DNA of 64,000 nt. It comes from Thermococcus sp. (GTDB taxonomy: Archaea > Methanobacteriota_B > Thermococci > Thermococcales > Thermococcaceae). Position numbers and translations under genes: made by a program. Under the pieces are notes generated by a model. The model saw only the letters and a list, made by a program, of their open reading frames with translations. It was not told where the DNA came from and did no database searches. Below are positions 29,488-53,657 of this stretch, piece by piece. The stretch lies in assembly GCF_027023865.1 (NCBI RefSeq), contig NZ_JALVUC010000010.1, positions 1 through 64,000 of the forward strand. Reading direction: 5' to 3'. Numbering within the stretch: position 1 is the first letter of the stretch; every line of letters begins with the position of its first letter.

Positions 29488-29551
29488 GCGAACCGAAAGG
29501 AATATAACCCAACACCCCTTAATCCTCCGTTAGTGAAATAAGGTGATCATA

Positions 29552-30507
29552 ATGGACGGGGACGCTGGGAACAACCTCCTTGAGCTGGTCACCTCTTGGC
29601 GGTTCAGGGAAGTGGTTCGGCTGGCCCTCGACGATGAGGGCGCGCTGGTTGAGATCGTCCGCCTTCTTCGCTTCGATGATTGTTCTGTTGTAGTGGGTGC
29701 CCTATCCGCCCTTGGGGAGGCCCTCCCTTATCTGAGCGAAGGAGGTAAGTTCAGGGTACTCCGTGAGGGTTTCGATGACCTTATTAGACTTCTCAATTCA
29801 GACGTTCCAGTGGCCCGGAGGGCCATATCCATCCTCAAACATCTCCTCTCCAGTGTTCCCCTCTCACGGAACCACCTTGTGAGTCTCGTGGAGATTCTCT
29901 CTGAGGTCGCTGGGGGTGAGAACGGGCCTATCCTCCTTCATGACCTGTTTGAGCTTGCTTCAAAGCCCCGTCCGATATTCTTTGACGAGCTTGTTGAGCC
30001 GGTCAGGCGGATGGTAACATCAGATAATCCCAACGTTGCACTCCTTGGTGCAAGGCTGGCCGTCACAATGGGAATACCCGTGTTCATCGGTTGGAGGAAC
30101 GTTCTAAATGCCCTCGCCAGGGCCTTGAGAGGGAAGAATGCGGTGGCCGTAGAACTTGCACTTGAAGTTGTTTCAGACCTTGGTTCCCTCCTCCTCGAGG
30201 CTCCGATTCTCTACGTGATTAAAAGCCTCTATCCCCCCTTAAAACGCTCTCTGGTAGTGGGGCCGATGCCGTCATTCGTGGTAGGGCAGTGGAGGTCTTT
30301 GAGAGGTTCCGCAAGGCTGTTTTTAATTACTACAGAACAAGGCCGCTGGAAGCAGGGAATGATGCGGAAGAGCTCCTCAAAGAGGGTTTTACTGAGGAGG
30401 CCTTACTCGTGGCATCAGCCAGTGGGTACTCCGTTAACCTTCTAATGAGAAAGGTTGAAGGTCTCGTCCCAACGCCCAACTTCAAAACGCCATTTACCCC
30501 AGGTTAG
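29552..30507 (+). pseudogene. Shorter HEAT-repeat paralogue, frameshifted
   Basis: The first frame (ATG 29552, after AAGGTGAT) encodes HEAT-like helices similar to the gene at 23827, such as LVTSWRFREVVRLALDDEGALVEIVRLL. It goes out of frame at a C6 run (30233-30238). Adding one C gives LKTLSGSGADAVIRGRAVEVFERFRKAVFNYYRTRPLEA, which matches LEDAICRYYNGRPEKA of the longer paralogue. The corrected length is 318 aa, about half the paralogue, ending GLVPTPNFKTPFTPG. Truncation and frameshift together make function doubtful. Confidence 0.72.
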
Positions 30508-30546
30508 TCTTTTAAGTACCGCCAGTTACCCTCTCAGGTGGCGGCC

Positions 30547-32288
30547 GTGGGAAAGCTCAAGTTATCCGATAGGCATCTCTACGCCCTTGTCGAAGCGATA
30601 AAGCTCGGCGAGGAAGTCAAGCCCAGCCAACAGGCCAAGAGGCGGGCCTTTGTCGGATACAAAATTGAAGGTTGGGAGAACTCCAAGCTGACTGGCATCT
30701 TCTACTCCATACAGCGGAGACTCGGCCTTATCGACGAGATCATCGGGGAGCTGGTGGGGGTTTCTCCGCTCATCCTCGACCCTTGGCTGAGAGCGGCTTT
30801 GAGGGTTGCCGTTGAGGTTGCCATCTTCCGCGCCCCGAACGGGAAGATCATCCAACACCTAAGGGGACTCGCTCAATTTTTATCTAAGAGAACGCACCCC
30901 TACGTTGGTTATTACTACTACGACCTTCTCCCAGAGATTCTGAGCTACGTCCCGGCCATAGACTCTGGAGAGAAGAGGCTGAAGTGGGACTGCCTCTTTC
31001 CCGAGTGGCTCATAAGGAGAATGCGTTTCCTCATTGGTGATGAGGTGAGAGAACTTCTAACGACCCTCAACGAAACTCCTCCAACGAGCATAAGGGTGAA
31101 CCAGCTGAAAGTTACTCCCAGTGAGGTGGGGGACTATCTGAGGAGAAAGAACGTCCGCTTTGAGAGGAGCGAGCGGGTTGAGACCGTCATCAGAATCCTC
31201 GACCCATTCAACCCTGAATGGCTGTTTAACAAAGGGTACGCTGTAGCTCAGGAAGAAGCCCCTGCTGTTGCATCCCTCATCCTGTCCCCAAAACCCGGTG
31301 AGACTGTCGTCGACCTCGCCGCCGCTCCCGGAGGAAAGACAGCTCATATGGCGGAGCTGATGGGGAATGAGGGTAAAATATACGCCTTTGACGTAGATAA
31401 TGCTCGGATAAAGCGGATGAATGGGATGCTCAGACGCACTGGTGTGAGTATAGCCGAGACCATGAGGATCGACGGGAGGAAGGCCCCGGAAATCCTCGGA
31501 GAGGGAATAGCTGACAGACTGACCTCCTCCTCGTCGTGAATGGCGAGGGTTCTGACAAATTAACCCCCCGCCAAACGCGGGAAGGTTTACGGGCACTCAT
31601 CCACCTACTCCCGTTGCCGGTTTCGGTTCAGCCCGAAGGCCCGGTCTCGTGCCCATTACCCCTACCGCAGAGCGGTTTGGGGTTATCGTTCCAAAGACCA
31701 CTCGTGAGTTTCAAACTGCTCAACGGCAGTCTTTCGAAGATGCTTAACAGCGTCAAACCACTCCAAGGGTGGAGTGGTAACTGAAACCCCCCACCTCATC
31801 GGATTGTTTTTAAGTGGCCTCCCCGAGGCCTTATTAAGTTGCAAAAACTTAAAAGGGTTTCGACCGTTGGAAAGCTGGATTGCTGGTTACCGCATCCCCG
31901 TCTTAAAGGACGAGGCTTTTGAGAGAAAAAGGTAATGCTCGACGCGCCGTGCACGAGCGATGGCACCATAGCAAAAAACCCCGAGCTGAGATGGCGCCTC
32001 CGCGAGAAGAACATCCCTAAGGTCGTTGCACTCCAGAAAGAGCTCCTTGAGAGCGCTTGGAAGCTTCTGAAGCCCAGGGGAAGGTTGCTCTACTCCACCT
32101 GTTCGATGTTACCTGAGGAGAACGAGGAGGTAGTGAGGTGGTTCCTCAAAGGGCATGGCGATGCAAGACTCATTCCCCTGCGCAGGCCCTACAGTGAGGG
32201 TTTTCTGGAGGGAACTATGCGAGCTTGGCCTCATATGCACGGAACTATCGGATTCTTCTATGCACTGATTGAGAAGAAGGGGGATTAA
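30547..32288 (+). pseudogene. NSUN/RsmB-type RNA cytosine-C5 methyltransferase, split by a mobile element
   Basis: Exon-like parts 30547-31518 and 31932-32288 form one roughly 442-aa protein when the 413-bp element between them is removed (...GIADR / VMLDAPCTSDG...). It has an N-terminal NusB-like helical domain, a SAM-binding motif VVDLAAAPGGKTAHMAEL, the DAPCTSDG motif with one catalytic Cys, and the second Cys in LLYSTCSMLPEEN. The enzyme methylates cytosine C5 in rRNA or tRNA. In this strain the ORF stops soon after the insertion, and the DAPC and TCS motifs are separated from the rest. The 3' end overlaps the convergent MscS gene by 4 bases. Confidence 0.93.
31519..31931 (-). mobile_element. 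413-bp TnpB-less IS605-type element (MITE)
   Basis: On the minus strand it begins CTTTTTCTCTCAAAAGCCTCG, right after TTAC (31935-31932), and ends GACGAGGAGGAGGTCAG. Both ends match the autonomous copy at 51595-53065. The internal part near its right end (31519-31690) matches the region around the tnpB stop (ACGATAACCCC, GGTAGGGGTAAT, GAGACC), so it keeps the probable omega-RNA region but no tnpB. There is no target duplication, as expected for single-strand IS605 transposition. Deleting it rejoins AGA-GTA-ATG in frame. Confidence 0.92.
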
Positions 32289-34139: not shown

Positions 34140-34185
34140 CTGACCTTCTTCCTGCCCTGAAGGGCGAGGCTTTCAAAAGAAAAAG
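34140..34185 (-). mobile_element. 46-bp end-to-end remnant of the IS605-type element
   Basis: On the minus strand: after GGTTAC comes CTTTTTCTTTTGAAAGCCTCG (left-end sequence), then CCCTTCAGGGCAGGAAGAAGGTCAG (right-end sequence). Left and right ends are fused at the shared CGCCCTTC hairpin, with all internal sequence lost. The TTAC target and the GGTCAG terminus are both intact. It lies in the interval between the DUF432 and NYN-like genes, upstream of the DUF432 start. Confidence 0.85.
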
Positions 34186-34205: not shown

Positions 34206-34865
34206 TCAATGTGGTGACCTCAATTTACTGAGTATCTCACAAAACGATAATGGAGTTCCCTCAAGGGTTTTTCCAACGTGTTTAGCTAGGTCGAAGGCTC
34301 CACTTACCTTGGCGATCACAGCTGTATCTGCCGTTGCAACGTTTTCAAACCCCCTAAGCTCGTGGTCTGGGCTTCTCACGAGGTAAACCTCACCGGGCAC
34401 TCCTACCTTTTTGAGGGCTTTTCGCGTCATGGCCGCTACCAGCCCACTCTTTGGATTGCCCTTTCCGTAGAAAAAAACTGCTCTACCAACATTTAACCTC
34501 ATTAAAGCCTCTGCCGTTTTTAAAATAAGCTTCTCGGTCTTCTCATTGATCCTATACTTCCCTTGATATTTGAGATCCCTGACAAGGCCATCCTCACAGA
34601 GCATTGCCCTCCCCTCCATGAGTGACTCGAGTGTTATGAGAACGTTAAATCCATCGATGGCTAAGATTCTCCCCCGAAGATCACTTGACTTCAAGAGTTT
34701 TCTCTCCACCTCTTTGATCCAGCCGTCTGAGAAAACGCATCTCGCCAGCAGGTGCCTCTCCCTTAGGGTCAGGCGGTAGTGGTTGGCCACGAAATCTAGG
34801 GCGTAGGTTTTTCGGTAGCCTCTGTTGAGGAGGTACTTGAAATCGCGGTACGCTTCGCTCAGCAT
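34206..34865 (-). CDS. DUF434/NYN-like protein
   Basis: The 219-aa protein has an N-terminal helical region with YALDFVANHYRLTLRERHLLARCVFSD, a DUF434-type signature. A nuclease-like domain follows with ILAIDGFNVLITLESLM (about residues 68-84) and SPDHELRGF and ATADTAVIAK, where acidic residues could bind metal as in NYN/PIN folds. A ribonuclease role is possible but unproven. The HD gene upstream is on the same strand with a 21-base gap. Confidence 0.75.
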   Translation of the reverse strand: MLSEAYRDFKYLLNRGYRKTYALDFVANHYRLTLRERHLLARCVFSDGWIKEVERKLLKSSDLRGRILAIDGFNVLITLESLMEGRAMLCEDGLVRDLKYQGKYRINEKTEKLILKTAEALMRLNVGRAVFFYGKGNPKSGLVAAMTRKALKKVGVPGEVYLVRSPDHELRGFENVATADTAVIAKVSGAFDLAKHVGKTLEGTPLSFCEILSKLRSPH

Positions 34866-48433: not shown

Positions 48434-49642
48434 GTGAAGGTTGGGATCGTTTTTGGGATTAGCGAGCTTGCTAACCCTAAGGACTTTGAGAAGAAAGCTT
48501 CGGAGTTTATCACCTCCCTTGCCAGCGAATTCGACGTCGTTGGAGGTTTCTTCATCTCAACTAAGGCGGACTTCAAAGAGGCCAAAGCGACGGTGAACTT
48601 CAACGAGGTTGACACGATAGTCATCTATCCGCTAACCGGCGGCACGGAGGGAGCGTTGAAGGAGTTTACTGTCTACAGGAGGCCGGTTGTCGTCTACGGC
48701 GACCCGTTCAACAACTCTCTCGCTGCGGGAATAGAACTCAGGGAGTACTTCCGCGAGCGGTTAGTCCCATCAACCCTCGTCAAAAACTTCAACGAGCTTA
48801 GGGCAGCTTTACTAGGCTACGACGATATGAGGGAAACCCTAGACAGGTTCCTGAAGATGCGCATCGGTCTGATAGGCCGCGTTTCGCCCTGGCTCATAAA
48901 CGAGAAGTTCGAGTTGCCCTACACGAGGATCAGCCTCAAGAAGTTCTACGAGTACTACGATGCGGTTACGGATGAAGAGGGCTGGAATGCCGTTGAGGGG
49001 ATAGTATCCAAGGCGGCTGAAATTAAAGAACCCGATAGGAAAGCTTTAGTCAAGGCTGGCAGGATATACGTGACGATAGGGAGAATTCTCGAGGAGTACA
49101 ACCTCGATGGTTTTACCATAGGATGTTTCGATCTCATAGGGAAGATCGGCTCAACCCCCTGTCTGGCTTTGGCCATGTTCAACGCCCGCGGAGTCCCCGC
49201 TGCATGTGAGGGCGAGCTTAACTCCCTCTTAGGTATGATGATAGTGCAACGCTTCTTTGGCAAACCTGCCTTTATGGGTAACGTAGCGGACTACGGCGAG
49301 AGTCACCTGATTCTGGCACACTGTACCGCGCCGCTAATCGGGCGTTACGTTCTAAGAAGCCACTTCGAGAGCGGAACCGGTGTCGGTGTTGACGTGCAGT
49401 TACCAAAGGGAAAGGCGAGCCTGCTAAAGATGCGTGGAAGGAAAGCGGTCGTTGCAGGCGTCGAAGTTGTCGGGCAGGAACACAGCAACATGCGCTGCAG
49501 GACGCAGGTCAAGCTCAGAGTCGAGGATGCCGTGGACTTCATAGATGGAACCCTCGGAAACCACCACCTTCTCGTCTACGTCGAGGGTGAGGAACTTGCG
49601 GATCTGCTCAGCGAGCTTGGCTTCGAGGTCATGCTCTACTGA
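48434..49642 (+). CDS. L-fucose isomerase-like protein
   Basis: The 402-aa protein has the layout of the fucose/arabinose isomerase superfamily. An N-terminal Rossmann-like part ends in the substrate-domain motif TIGCFDLIGKIGSTPCLALAMFNARGVPAACEGELNSLLGMMI (about residues 223-265), where Glu and Asp side chains could bind a metal. The C-terminal part (LAHCTAPLIG...FESGTGVGVDVQLPKGKASLLKM) fits FucI-like proteins. The sugar substrate is unknown. The GTG start follows GGGTGAAAAC. Confidence 0.8.
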   Translation: MKVGIVFGISELANPKDFEKKASEFITSLASEFDVVGGFFISTKADFKEAKATVNFNEVDTIVIYPLTGGTEGALKEFTVYRRPVVVYGDPFNNSLAAGIELREYFRERLVPSTLVKNFNELRAALLGYDDMRETLDRFLKMRIGLIGRVSPWLINEKFELPYTRISLKKFYEYYDAVTDEEGWNAVEGIVSKAAEIKEPDRKALVKAGRIYVTIGRILEEYNLDGFTIGCFDLIGKIGSTPCLALAMFNARGVPAACEGELNSLLGMMIVQRFFGKPAFMGNVADYGESHLILAHCTAPLIGRYVLRSHFESGTGVGVDVQLPKGKASLLKMRGRKAVVAGVEVVGQEHSNMRCRTQVKLRVEDAVDFIDGTLGNHHLLVYVEGEELADLLSELGFEVMLY

Positions 49643-49691
49643 TTTTCCTTTCTGTTAAGTTCTAGAAAAGCTAAAGGGAAGAAAAAGAAAC

Positions 49692-51591
49692 TCATGCGGT
49701 CTCTTTTATCCCAGCAAACTTCGCTCCATAGAGCTTCAGGCCCAGCCAGGTAACGAAGCCTGCCCCAACGAGTACCGGGTTCAACGTAACCCCAACAAGG
49801 CCTAAGACCCCAACGAGGCCGCGGACCCATTTCTTCAGGTGTGTTCCGTAGAAGCCGGTCAGCGATATCGCCAGCAGGTACATGACGAAGAGCGTTGCCA
49901 CCATGTAGTAAACCACCTCCAATGTTGCCATGACGCTCCAGTGGGGCACCGTTATGAGGAACATCTTGGGGTGGGTGAAGTAGATGTAAGGTCCGACGTA
50001 GCCCGCGAGCGCGTACTTGACCGCATTCATTGCCGTTTTCCAGAAGTCTCCTCCCGCTATGGCAGAGCCAGCGTAGCTCGCGAGGGCAACTGGGGGGCGT
50101 AACGTCCGCGAGGATTCCGAAGTAGAACACGAAGAAGTGGGCTGCTAAGAGGGCTATGAGGGTTGTGTATCCCGGAACCGGCTGGTCGTAGGGGGGGATG
50201 TTCTGGACGAGCATGTAAATGGCCGGTGCGGAGACGAGTGAGGTTATGATGTAATTCGCGGTGGTTGGAACGCCCATTCCAAGGATGAGGCTGAAGACCA
50301 TCGTCAGGATGAGGAGGAGCCAGAGGTTGCCGCCGGTTAGACTTACGAGACGGTAGCCGATGTTGGTCAGCTCACCGGTCATGGTGAGGACGCCCTGTAT
50401 TAGTCCAGCGGCCGCCGCGGCCAGCATGACGCTGACACTCGTTTTGCCCGCGTCTATCATGGCCTCGTAGGTTGCCCTGTACATCATCTTGCCACTGTCT
50501 ATCTTGGAGTAGTAGCCGACAAGGATCGAGAACAGGATTCCAAAGACGCCGGTCATGAGGACTATCTGCTCCTTCGTCATCATCAGGTACTTCGTGAGGG
50601 CCACGAAGAGCAGGAACGAGGTTGTTATCCAGTACTTCTCGTTGAACTCCACGCCCTTCTTGACGAGTCCGAGACCGGTAAGGACTAGGAAAGTGGCGAA
50701 GAGCGTCAGTGTAGAGACCATGACCCAGTTCTTGCCCGTGAACATGAGGAACGTCGCAAGGAGCGCTATCACCACGTAGAGCTTCTCGTTTCCAGCTATC
50801 TCATCCCTTGAAATCCACGCCACCCAGATGGCAACGCCAAGGGATGAAACCGCGGAGATGTGCGGCGGAATTCCCCAGACGAGGGCAACCGTGATGACAA
50901 CTATGGGCAGGAGGATGTAGAGCTTCCTGATGAAGTAACTCATGGTCTTGAAGGCCTCTGCGGCCATACCCTTGAGTCCAAGCCTCTTGGTCTCGAGGTC
51001 GATGAAGAGGTAAACGCCACCGTAGTAGACCAGCGCCGGAATGACCGCCGCGATTATAAGCCTGTTGTATGGGATGTTGAGGAACTCTGCCATTATAAAG
51101 GCCGCTGCACCCATAATGGGCGGCATCAGCTGGCCGCCGGTTGAGGAGACAGGCTCTACACCTCCAGCTATCTCCGGAGGGTAACCTGTCTTCTTCATTA
51201 GGGGTATCGTGAAAGTTCCGGTGGTTAAGACGTTGGCAACGCTCGAACCGCTGACCATCCCCATGAGGGCGCTCGAGACAACTGCCGATTTGGCTGGACC
51301 GCCGGGCTTCTTTCCGAAGAGCGCTATCATAAACTCCGTTATGTAGTCACTCACGCCTATCTTTAGCAGGAACGCCCCAAAGAACACGAAGGCGAAGACG
51401 TATATCGTCATGACGAAGAACGGGATTCCGAAGATACCCTCGTCGAAGTAGAGCTGCTGGACGAAGCGGCTCCAGTTGAAGCCAATGGCGTAGATGCCGT
51501 AGGCCAGGAAGAGAACCACTATTGCCGGTAGAACCCAACCCAAAACCCTCCTCGTCGCCTCGAGGACGATGGTTATTGCTATTAGACCCAT
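49692..51591 (-). pseudogene. TRAP transporter fused permease, 5'-truncated and frameshifted
   Basis: The gene encodes a DctM-like large permease with many membrane helices, including GMVSGSSVANVLTTGTFTIPLMKKTGYPPEIAGGVEPVSSTGGQLMPPIMGAAAFIMAEFL. The first codons (MGLIAITIVLEATRRVLGW) start only a few bases from the insertion sequence, and the usual N-terminal region of fused TRAP permeases is missing. The frame breaks in a G6 run at 50093-50098 (plus strand). With five Gs, DVTPPVALASYAGSAI continues into the frame ending at 49692 (FAGIKETA). The transporter is most likely inactive. Confidence 0.85.
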
Positions 51592-51708
51592 TACATTTTT
51601 CTTTTACAAGCCTCGCCCTTCGGGGCGGGGTACGAACAACCACCCAGCTAGCCCTTAAGCGGGAAAGCAACACCCTTTTAAAGCCTAAGAACAATACCAT
51701 GCTTTGAA

Positions 51709-52929
51709 ATGAAACGCTCAGTAACCATCAAACTCCAGCCGAGCAAGGAGCAGGAGAAAATCCTTTTTGAGTTAGCTCAAGCCACCGCAGTAATCTGGAA
51801 CAAGCTCAATTACCAGCGTTTAAAACAATTCAAAGAATTCGGCAAGATTGATTTTAATGAAACAGAAAAGGAAGCTTATCACGAGTTCAAGGACTGGATT
51901 GGTGGTTCGACAGTCCAACAATTAGCCAGAAAGAACGCTGAAAGCTGGAGGAGCTTCTTCTCGCTCAACAAGAAGAAAAAGAGTGGAGAATTACCAGAAT
52001 GGTTCAAGCCCAAACCGCCCGGCTTTGTCAGGAAGGAAAACGGGAGGAAAATCTTCATAATTCCCCTCCGGAACGACCAGTACAGGATTACCGGGAATGT
52101 TATCGAACTGCGAAGACTTGGAAAGTTTGGAAGACTGAGGATTCAATTCAAGGGCAGAATTCACCTGAAGGGCAAGCAGGGGCGGCTTGAGATAACTTAC
52201 GACGAGGTAAAGCGGAAATGGTATGCTCACGTTAGCTTCACCGCCGAGGAGAAGCTAATCAACTGCGAGTGGGTTAGTGTTCCGAGACAACCCGTAGGAG
52301 ACCTCTCGGCGGGTATTGACTTAGGAGTAAACAACCTGATGGCCGTTTACGTTGAGAACGGTGAGAGTTTTTTGGTCAATGGAAGACCGCTGAAGAGCAT
52401 TGATTTTTACTGGCAGAAGAGAATAGCAGACTACCAGTCAGAACTCAACAAGTCTGGAGCAAAAACGAGTAGGAACCTCAAAAGAATGCACGAGAAGGCT
52501 AAACTCCAAGCCAAACACTACATCAACACTGCCATGAGACAAACTGTTGAGAGGCTTTATCGTCTCGGAGTTTCGAGGATTGTGGTTGGTTATCCTAAAG
52601 GCATAGCCCGGAACTCTGAGAAAGGCAGAAAGCAGAATTTTCTCCTCTCCCAAGTTTGGCGGTTCAATTACGTTATCAAACGTCTCAAGGAAGTCTCGGA
52701 AGAATATGGTATTCTCGTTGAGGTTGTGAACGAGGCTTTCACTTCTCAATCCTGCCCTCTCTGCGGCCAACGCCATCCTGATGGTAGGATTTTCAGGGGT
52801 TTGTTTAAGTGCTGTAGAGAGGGCGTTGTGATGAATGCGGATTTAGTTGGAGCGTTTAACATTTTAAAGAAGGTGGCAAAAACGATAACCCCGAACTTGG
52901 GTTGGTCTCTATGCCCAAGTGAGGGGTAA
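51709..52929 (+). CDS. tnpB: RNA-guided nuclease TnpB (IS605 OrfB)
   Basis: The 406-aa protein has a basic N-terminal domain starting MKRSVTIKLQPSKEQEKIL and a RuvC-like nuclease with the three acidic residues: Asp in LSAGIDLGVNN (about residue 204), Glu in VVNEAFTSQSCPLCG (about 342) and Asp in MNADLVGAFNIL (about 379). The zinc motif has CPLC, but the second pair is an adjacent CC (LFKCCREGVV) rather than C-x2-C. TnpB proteins cut DNA guided by an omega RNA made from the element's right end. The frame is intact and the catalytic residues are present, so it may be active. Confidence 0.93.
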   Translation: MKRSVTIKLQPSKEQEKILFELAQATAVIWNKLNYQRLKQFKEFGKIDFNETEKEAYHEFKDWIGGSTVQQLARKNAESWRSFFSLNKKKKSGELPEWFKPKPPGFVRKENGRKIFIIPLRNDQYRITGNVIELRRLGKFGRLRIQFKGRIHLKGKQGRLEITYDEVKRKWYAHVSFTAEEKLINCEWVSVPRQPVGDLSAGIDLGVNNLMAVYVENGESFLVNGRPLKSIDFYWQKRIADYQSELNKSGAKTSRNLKRMHEKAKLQAKHYINTAMRQTVERLYRLGVSRIVVGYPKGIARNSEKGRKQNFLLSQVWRFNYVIKRLKEVSEEYGILVEVVNEAFTSQSCPLCGQRHPDGRIFRGLFKCCREGVVMNADLVGAFNILKKVAKTITPNLGWSLCPSEG

Positions 52930-53065
52930 TTGGCCGGAGACCCGGCCAGAGGGGTTGAAGACCTGTTTTAGTTTGGGTTTTAATGAGACCCCTCAAACCT
53001 CCCCGTCCTTAACTAGGGGTTAAACCGTTGGAACCCTTCGCCCTTCACGGCGGGGAGGAGGTCAG
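52850..53065 (+). ncRNA. Putative omega RNA (reRNA) region of the TnpB element
   Basis: In IS605-type elements the guide RNA covers the tnpB 3' end and the right end and reads into flanking DNA. Here this region is GC-rich with palindromes (GGCCGGAGACCCGGCC at 52932-52947). Parts of it (ACGATAACCCC, GAGGGGTAAT, GAGACC) recur in the 413-bp copy that lacks tnpB, implying selection on the RNA or the ends. The guide would be the host sequence after GGTCAG (53066 on). Exact ends are not determined. Confidence 0.4.
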
Positions 53066-53657
53066 GTAGACCTTCTCAATGCTGTTCCATACACCCGCGG
53101 CCTGGAGTATCTGCTGGGCTGCGACGGCGGTGCCGCTTCCGGCCGCTCCAACCGCCACCTTCTTGCCCTTAAGGTCTTGGAGGGTCTTTATGTTGCTGTC
53201 GGCGCGGACAACGAACTGGATGGTCTCAGGATAGAGTGCGGCGATGCCGCGGAGCTTCTTTACGGGTTGCCCTTGAAAGCGTCCAGAACAACTCCGTTGT
53301 AGGCGTAGTAAGCGACATCGTTCTGCATGATGGCCGCCTGTGCATTCCCATCTCCTATAGCCTTGGCGTTAGAAACGCTCGCACCGCTTGTAACCGCTTT
53401 GGCGTTGATTTTTATCCCGGCCTCCTTGGCGCTGTACTGGTTGAGTATGTTCGCATAGGCCGAGCCGAGCGGATAGTAAACACCACTGGTTCCACCGGTG
53501 TAGATTGTCAAACTATAGGACTCCGTTGCGGAGCTTGTAGTACCGGTTCCGGTTCCACTCCCGCCGCCGGAGCTTGTACAACCCGCCATAACAACGGCAA
53601 AAAGCAAAACAGCAACCAACCCAAGGGTGGTTATGGTTTTCCTCCTTTTTACGCACC
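53066..53657 (-). pseudogene. TAXI-family TRAP solute-binding lipoprotein, truncated and frameshifted
   Basis: The protein starts with a lipoprotein signal (VAVLLFAVVMAGCTSSGGG). A TAXI-type binding domain follows: YSLTIYTGGTSGVYYPLGSAYANIL, SVSNAKAIGDGNAQAAIMQNDVAYYAY. One base is missing at 53261-53266 (CCG GTA expected, CCG TA seen). The next frame continues KKLRGIAALYPETIQFVVRADSNIKTLQDLKGKKVAVGAAGSGTAVAAQQILQAAGVWNSIEKVY and is then cut by the insertion sequence. About 140 C-terminal residues are missing. The exact start codon is unclear; the signal region appears to need one base less near 53646. Confidence 0.82.

Follow-up and report, generated by a model that had tools for sequence, protein, structure and literature searches.

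The window, by which we mean the whole 64,000-nucleotide stretch of Thermococcus sp. DNA that was analysed, contains an RNA methyltransferase gene that is split by 413 bp of other sequence. This raises the question of what the insert is, how it came into the gene and whether it has a function of its own. The locus consists of the following parts.

30538-31518, plus strand: 5' part of the split RsmB/F-type RNA m5C methyltransferase gene, with the SAM-binding motif DLAAAPGGKT (Pfam PF01189 positions 2-82)
31519-31931, minus strand: coding-free 413-bp element of IS200/IS605 type (PATE), inserted 3' of TTAC, as indicated by exact excision and by the family copies
31932-32288, plus strand: 3' part of the methyltransferase gene, with DAPCT and the STCS cysteine motif (Pfam PF01189 positions 84-198)

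The protein joined from both halves matches PF01189 with 202 bits and PDB entry 2yxl with an E-value of 1e-160. With its SAM motif, DAPC motif and TCS cysteine motif it has the features by which an RsmB/F-type NSUN m5C methyltransferase is recognised. The gene is cut between the SAM-binding part and the part with the catalytic cysteine, and its disruption in the present assembly is certain. Because the insert separates DLAAAPGGKT from DAPCT and STCS, neither half should function alone, judging from what is known of the family.

Joining position 31518 to 31932 in silico gives a single open frame of 445 codons. Such a repair of the reading frame without target duplication had been proposed in an earlier note on this DNA, and the relatives bear it out: in the DNA of all 30 Thermococcus orthologues read, the gene is uninterrupted at the junction, with no base extra or missing, which makes it very unlikely that the 413 bp are ancestral. 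Most of these orthologues read ADRV[ML]LDAPCTS across the junction, which matches the in silico excision exactly. The neighbouring methyltransferase and mscS genes are retained beside the locus in many of the 30 relatives. A suspected second insertion at the same place in genome G053, where a contig ends nearby, was rejected, as the contig end has no element sequence.

The earlier note also spoke of the recent loss of a conserved gene. The gene is near-full-length in about 50 of 61 Thermococcus genomes and absent from some nearly complete ones such as G023, so that on this survey it is widespread in the genus but not universal. G023, G044 (94% completeness) and G045 (91%) gave only paralogue-level matches, and no orthologue of the methyltransferase was found in them. 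That the disruption is recent is supported, since the remainder of the frame is open and apparently still under constraint (pN ~0.11, pS ~0.7), even though the split copy is the most divergent of the compared set at the amino-acid level. A slightly raised pN is also present in a neighbouring gene. Dating the insertion by the divergence of sibling copies was attempted and given up: the nearest copy has 87% identity, so no donor is usable, and the substitutions say only that the frame is still constrained. Upstream of the split gene, the ORF at 29543-30507 has an apparent frameshift near 30290-30445, which may mean that a second gene is decaying or that the sequence is in error there.

The position of the insert at 31519-31931, after TTAC and ending in GGTCAG on the minus strand, had been given correctly before, and so had the match of both its ends to a tnpB-bearing element in the same window:

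51595-53065, plus strand: tnpB-bearing element with the same ends as the 413-bp element (tnpB ORF 51709-52929)

On the minus strand, the flank CGAGCATTAC is followed by the left end CTTTTTCTC, and the right end GGAGGAGGTCAG by the flank TCTGTCAGC. The tnpB copy reads correspondingly CCCATTAC followed by ATTTTTCTT, and GGAGGAGGTCAG followed by GTAGACC. The likeness between the two elements is confined to 83 bp at the right (75%), 26 bp in the tnpB stop region (85%) and 25 bp at the left (84%). Read from left to right along the minus strand, the 413-bp element and its flanks have these features.

31932-31935, minus strand: TTAC target and left cleavage site, retained in the left flank (GTAA on the plus strand)
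31916-31919, minus strand: left guide AAAG, identical to GL of IS608 and immediately 5' to the left hairpin
31896-31915, minus strand: left-end hairpin (from the DNA fold; the left end is common to the tnpB copies)
31848-31860, minus strand: candidate BRE/TATA promoter element AAACCCTTTTAAG for an internal RNA, kept in nearly all family copies
31691-31847, minus strand: element-specific core with conserved hairpins and without a conserved reading frame, unlike the tnpB and tnpA of the same genome
31519-31690, minus strand: putative omega-RNA (reRNA) scaffold, akin to the stop region of tnpB together with the right end (69% against the autonomous copy; element positions 242-413)
31528-31552, minus strand: right guide GAAC, then the right-end hairpin (from alignments and the DNA fold)
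31519-31522, minus strand: TCAG right cleavage site, the same in all 18 PATE copies and all 15 mixed PATE/tnpB copies compared
31503-31518, minus strand: predicted 16-nt guide TCTGTCAGCTATTCCC, host sequence just past the right end (from the ISDra2 reRNA layout, PMC8612924)

The element thus has subterminal imperfect palindromes, the end hairpins, at ends which it has in common with the tnpB copies, and it lies 3' of a short target that is not duplicated. Of the 26 distinct left ends read, 20 are directly preceded by TTAC, against a background of about 2% of the 10-mers in the window. We considered that the element encodes a protein and rejected this, as the 53-aa ORF on the minus strand matches nothing in Pfam and its frame is interrupted by indels in sibling copies. 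An origin of the 157-bp core from tnpA or tnpB was likewise discarded, since BLAST against all tnpB and tnpA elements of the genome gave no similarity.

When the 413 bp were used as a query, 37 matches were found in their own genome. About nine of these are complete or near-complete and, besides the self match, have 77-87% identity; the others comprise fragments, pieces at contig ends and the right ends of tnpB elements. The best sibling reaches 87% identity with an E-value of 1e-138, and copies in other species reach 83%. Some match is present in 40 of 61 Thermococcus genomes and in 70 of 94 Thermococcaceae genomes, covering all six genera, although the weakest of these matches consist of the shared ends only. 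Because the whole 413 bp recur in the same genome and in other species, the matches are not due to chance. The copies lie in unrelated flanks, but their left end is still preceded by TTAC and their right end still reads GGTCAG; indels between them break any reading frame. From these comparisons, the insert belongs to a multi-copy, coding-free element family with relatives in other Thermococcaceae genera, which adds to what had been noted before.

The nearest sibling is 13% diverged, so the donor copy is not identifiable. None of the seven sibling copies tested splits a long open frame as is the case in the methyltransferase. Three siblings (L006, L008 and L009) look mosaic, with the left part of L009 resembling L006 and its middle and right parts L008, which suggests recombination between copies or an assembly chimera. 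The window also holds a much shorter relative, directly downstream of the ORF at 34206-34865, that looks like a PATE with its core deleted:

34140-34185, minus strand: end-only remnant of 46 bp, with TTAC, the left end fused to the right end, and TCAG

How the element moves can be read from its ends. In IS608, the left cleavage site TTAC pairs with the guide AAAG and the right site TCAA with the guide GAAT (PMC5934647). The corresponding pairs here are TTAC with AAAG and TCAG with GAAC, and both AAAG and GAAC stand directly 5' of the end hairpins, so by comparison with IS608 the guide tetranucleotides match their cleavage sites. In our reading, each member of the right pair has a single substitution relative to IS608 (A to G in the cleavage site, T to C in the guide), and the match is thereby preserved.

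The element has no transposase gene. The only Y1 transposase of the genome is encoded elsewhere (C19:242453-242803), where it would be available in trans; it has the HUH motif (HVH) and the tyrosine region, and it matches solved IS200/IS605 TnpA structures with an E-value of 3e-49. The sole IS carrying tnpA (C19:240900-243400) itself splits a gene which, from our reading of the sequence, we take to be of sir2 type. At its presumed empty site the halves rejoin as VWSFY and KWRMNLV across TTTAC and AAGTGG. The tnpB beside this tnpA appears to be frameshifted. Across the 61 genomes, the PATE is present in 12 of 15 with tnpA and 12 of 46 without (Fisher p 5e-4, relatedness ignored), and in 19 of 22 with four or more tnpB matches as opposed to 5 of the 39 others (p 2e-8, relatedness again ignored). 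Single-strand transposition of IS605 type without target duplication, the mechanism named in the earlier note, is well supported because the site is empty in 30 relatives, the TTAC and TCAG ends and the guides are IS608-like, one tnpA is present and the sir2 joint is exact.

Besides the DNA signals at its ends, the element appears to retain an RNA-coding part. In an alignment with nine tnpB copies, its right ~172 bp correspond to their tnpB stop region and right end, which agrees with the earlier suggestion that a segment related to the tnpB 3' region had been kept. RNAalifold found five helices common to the PATE and the tnpB 3' ends, with 94.4% of cells paired on the shared structure compared to 41-59% in slid controls. 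On this structure there are 30 double-change cells, and 0 of 500 shuffles scored as high; shuffling leaves relatedness in place, and a large part of the covariation divides the PATEs from the tnpB copies as two groups, so it may rest on few events. The last ~172 bp therefore combine derivation from the tnpB 3' end, a right end reaching the element boundary and a scaffold fold shared with tnpB-linked regions, and look like a complete TnpB guide (omega) RNA.

The RNA of TnpB in ISDra2 consists of the tnpB 3' end, the right end and ~16 nt of flank, and its target adjoins the insertion-site motif (PMC8612924). By analogy, the predicted guide here is TCTGTCAGCTATTCCC, which would target the TTAC-adjacent site of the uninterrupted methyltransferase gene. 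On the grounds of sequence, fold and literature, TnpB would be likely to use this RNA in trans. As the middle of the omega region is unlike the tnpB copies, compatibility with the resident TnpBs is uncertain.

In the TnpB encoded at 51709-52929 and in other copies the usual RuvC-II glutamate is missing (IVVGYPKG), and an E lies six residues before a zinc-finger cysteine (NEAFTSQSCPLC). This position is that of the 'alternative E' arrangement described in PMC10711439; the RuvC-I motif is IDLG rather than DPG. In the region 49636-53619, the neighbours of the tnpB element are a substrate-binding-type gene, which is truncated and in addition frameshifted near 53260, and a TRAP-type permease gene. 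A deletion may have accompanied its insertion, since the flanks do not obviously rejoin into one gene.

The right end of the element also overlaps a known RNA family. The Rfam model HgcC (RF00062) matches 31506-31624 with 30 bits against a cut-off of 50. The matches of the tnpB copies are below the cut-off as well, and no match in the present genome (G000) or in genome G012 reaches the gathering threshold of 50 bits. Beyond GGUCAG the model extends for another ~15 nt, the place of the guide in an omega RNA. At an E-value of up to 1 there are 63 HgcC matches in the present genome, many of them at left as well as right ends because the two end hairpins resemble each other, and solo ends appear to be widespread in this genome.

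G012 is, we assume, probably T. kodakarensis KOD1, and its five best HgcC matches come in the order expected for the T. kodakarensis HgcC loci. The match at 1474300 is a 5'-truncated copy of the 413-bp element inside a split hypothetical gene, consistent, for the presumed strain, with HgcC4 in TK1679. In this region (C1:1473000-1476000) the split gene is a small one (MTTYVLWYFKPQYGSY..), and the downstream frame reads on through the element end. Five HgcC RNAs are reported as transcripts of T. kodakarensis; three of them lie within transposase genes, and HgcC4 and HgcC5 lie outside (PMC4247193). The first TnpB paper already points to the T. kodakarensis transcriptome for tnpB-associated RNAs (PMC8612924); in the open literature searched, no paper naming HgcC and TnpB together was found.

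We consider it very probable that the insert is a non-autonomous PATE which was moved by TnpA in trans into the methyltransferase gene and which retains a probable HgcC/omega RNA. The Y1 transposase, acting in trans, would have cut the element out of another site as single-stranded DNA and placed it 3' of TTAC in the minus strand of the RsmB/F-type methyltransferase gene, leaving the target unduplicated. The element would survive by keeping the DNA signals read by TnpA and, most likely, also through its right ~172 bp, which would still make an HgcC/omega RNA ending in ~16 nt of NSUN sequence. Loaded with this RNA, a resident TnpB would cut the TTAC-flanked empty allele, by which the element would be copied back after excision; expression, loading and empty-site cleavage are steps that we infer.

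The element could instead be a substrate for transposition only, its tnpB-like 3' region a leftover near the right end that TnpA requires and any RNA inert. TnpA reads the end hairpins and guide tetranucleotides as DNA, the right end folds into a hairpin as DNA, and the 46-bp copy in the window indicates that an insertion can persist without the long omega part. However, conservation and compensatory pairing extend ~170 bp inward, far past the end hairpins, in helices common to the tnpB copies, and in the presumed T. kodakarensis genome one copy of the element lies at a locus with reported HgcC transcription, so that we regard this explanation as rather unlikely. A separate regulatory or structural role of the RNA, in which the ~157-bp core specific to the element would be the working part, is in our view improbable. 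Conservation of the core across the genera of Thermococcaceae, its several hairpins and its lack of relation to tnpB speak for such a role, as does the 310-nt RNA of the element, which had a better fold than all 100 shuffles (z -3.8), but the unrelated flanks of the copies across genomes fit a mobile element rather than a fixed regulator. We give almost no weight to the possibilities that the insert belonged to the gene ancestrally or arose in assembly. The genome is a draft of 26 contigs, several of which end in copies of the PATE repeat; against this, 30 of 30 relatives are without the insert, the two parts beside it belong to one gene and join exactly to the base, and the neighbouring genes are conserved.

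The locus is a base-exact natural test case for TnpB in trans, with a coding-free element, a defined guide and a TTAC-flanked target allele, and the loss of the host gene has a measurable outcome in missing m5C. A more tentative proposal, quite possible though short of probable, is that coding-free elements throughout the Thermococcaceae supply trans guide RNAs to resident TnpBs, that a few nucleases protect many dispersed copies, among them one that destroys a host gene, by cutting every empty allele, and that HgcC RNAs are these guides. This would give a plausible function to an archaeal RNA family that is listed without one, and the overlap with HgcC goes beyond the earlier note.

Compared with known systems, HgcC (RF00062) resembles an omega RNA with its guide in that the model ends at GGAGGAGGUCAG followed by ~15 nt of variable flank; the matches here lie below the family cut-off, and the family description states no function. 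The putative RNA of the element is like the ISDra2 reRNA in combining the tnpB 3' end with the right end and a flank guide of ~16 nt, with a target beside the transposon target site; unlike in ISDra2, it is encoded without tnpB and next to TTAC instead of TTGAT. IS608 (ISHp608) has the same TTAC target, the same AAAG left guide and hairpins at both ends, and its GAAT/TCAA pair corresponds by a matched change to GAAC/TCAG, whereas the 413-bp element is archaeal and without tnpA or tnpB.

Most closely comparable are the PATEs described in Haloquadratum (HqIRS71; PMC3119063) and the PATE-like element with a tnpB 3' remnant in Halanaerobium (PMC7290912). Like these, the 413-bp element is coding-free, with IS605-type ends, subterminal palindromes, no target duplication and a remnant of the tnpB C-terminal region and right end, and by these features it is a PATE, a class already known. 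The Thermococcaceae element differs from them in its many copies, its conserved element-specific core, its candidate promoter and its apparently whole omega-RNA fold. To the known class it adds a Thermococcaceae family in which this fold seems preserved, a precisely disrupted gene and a connection to HgcC.
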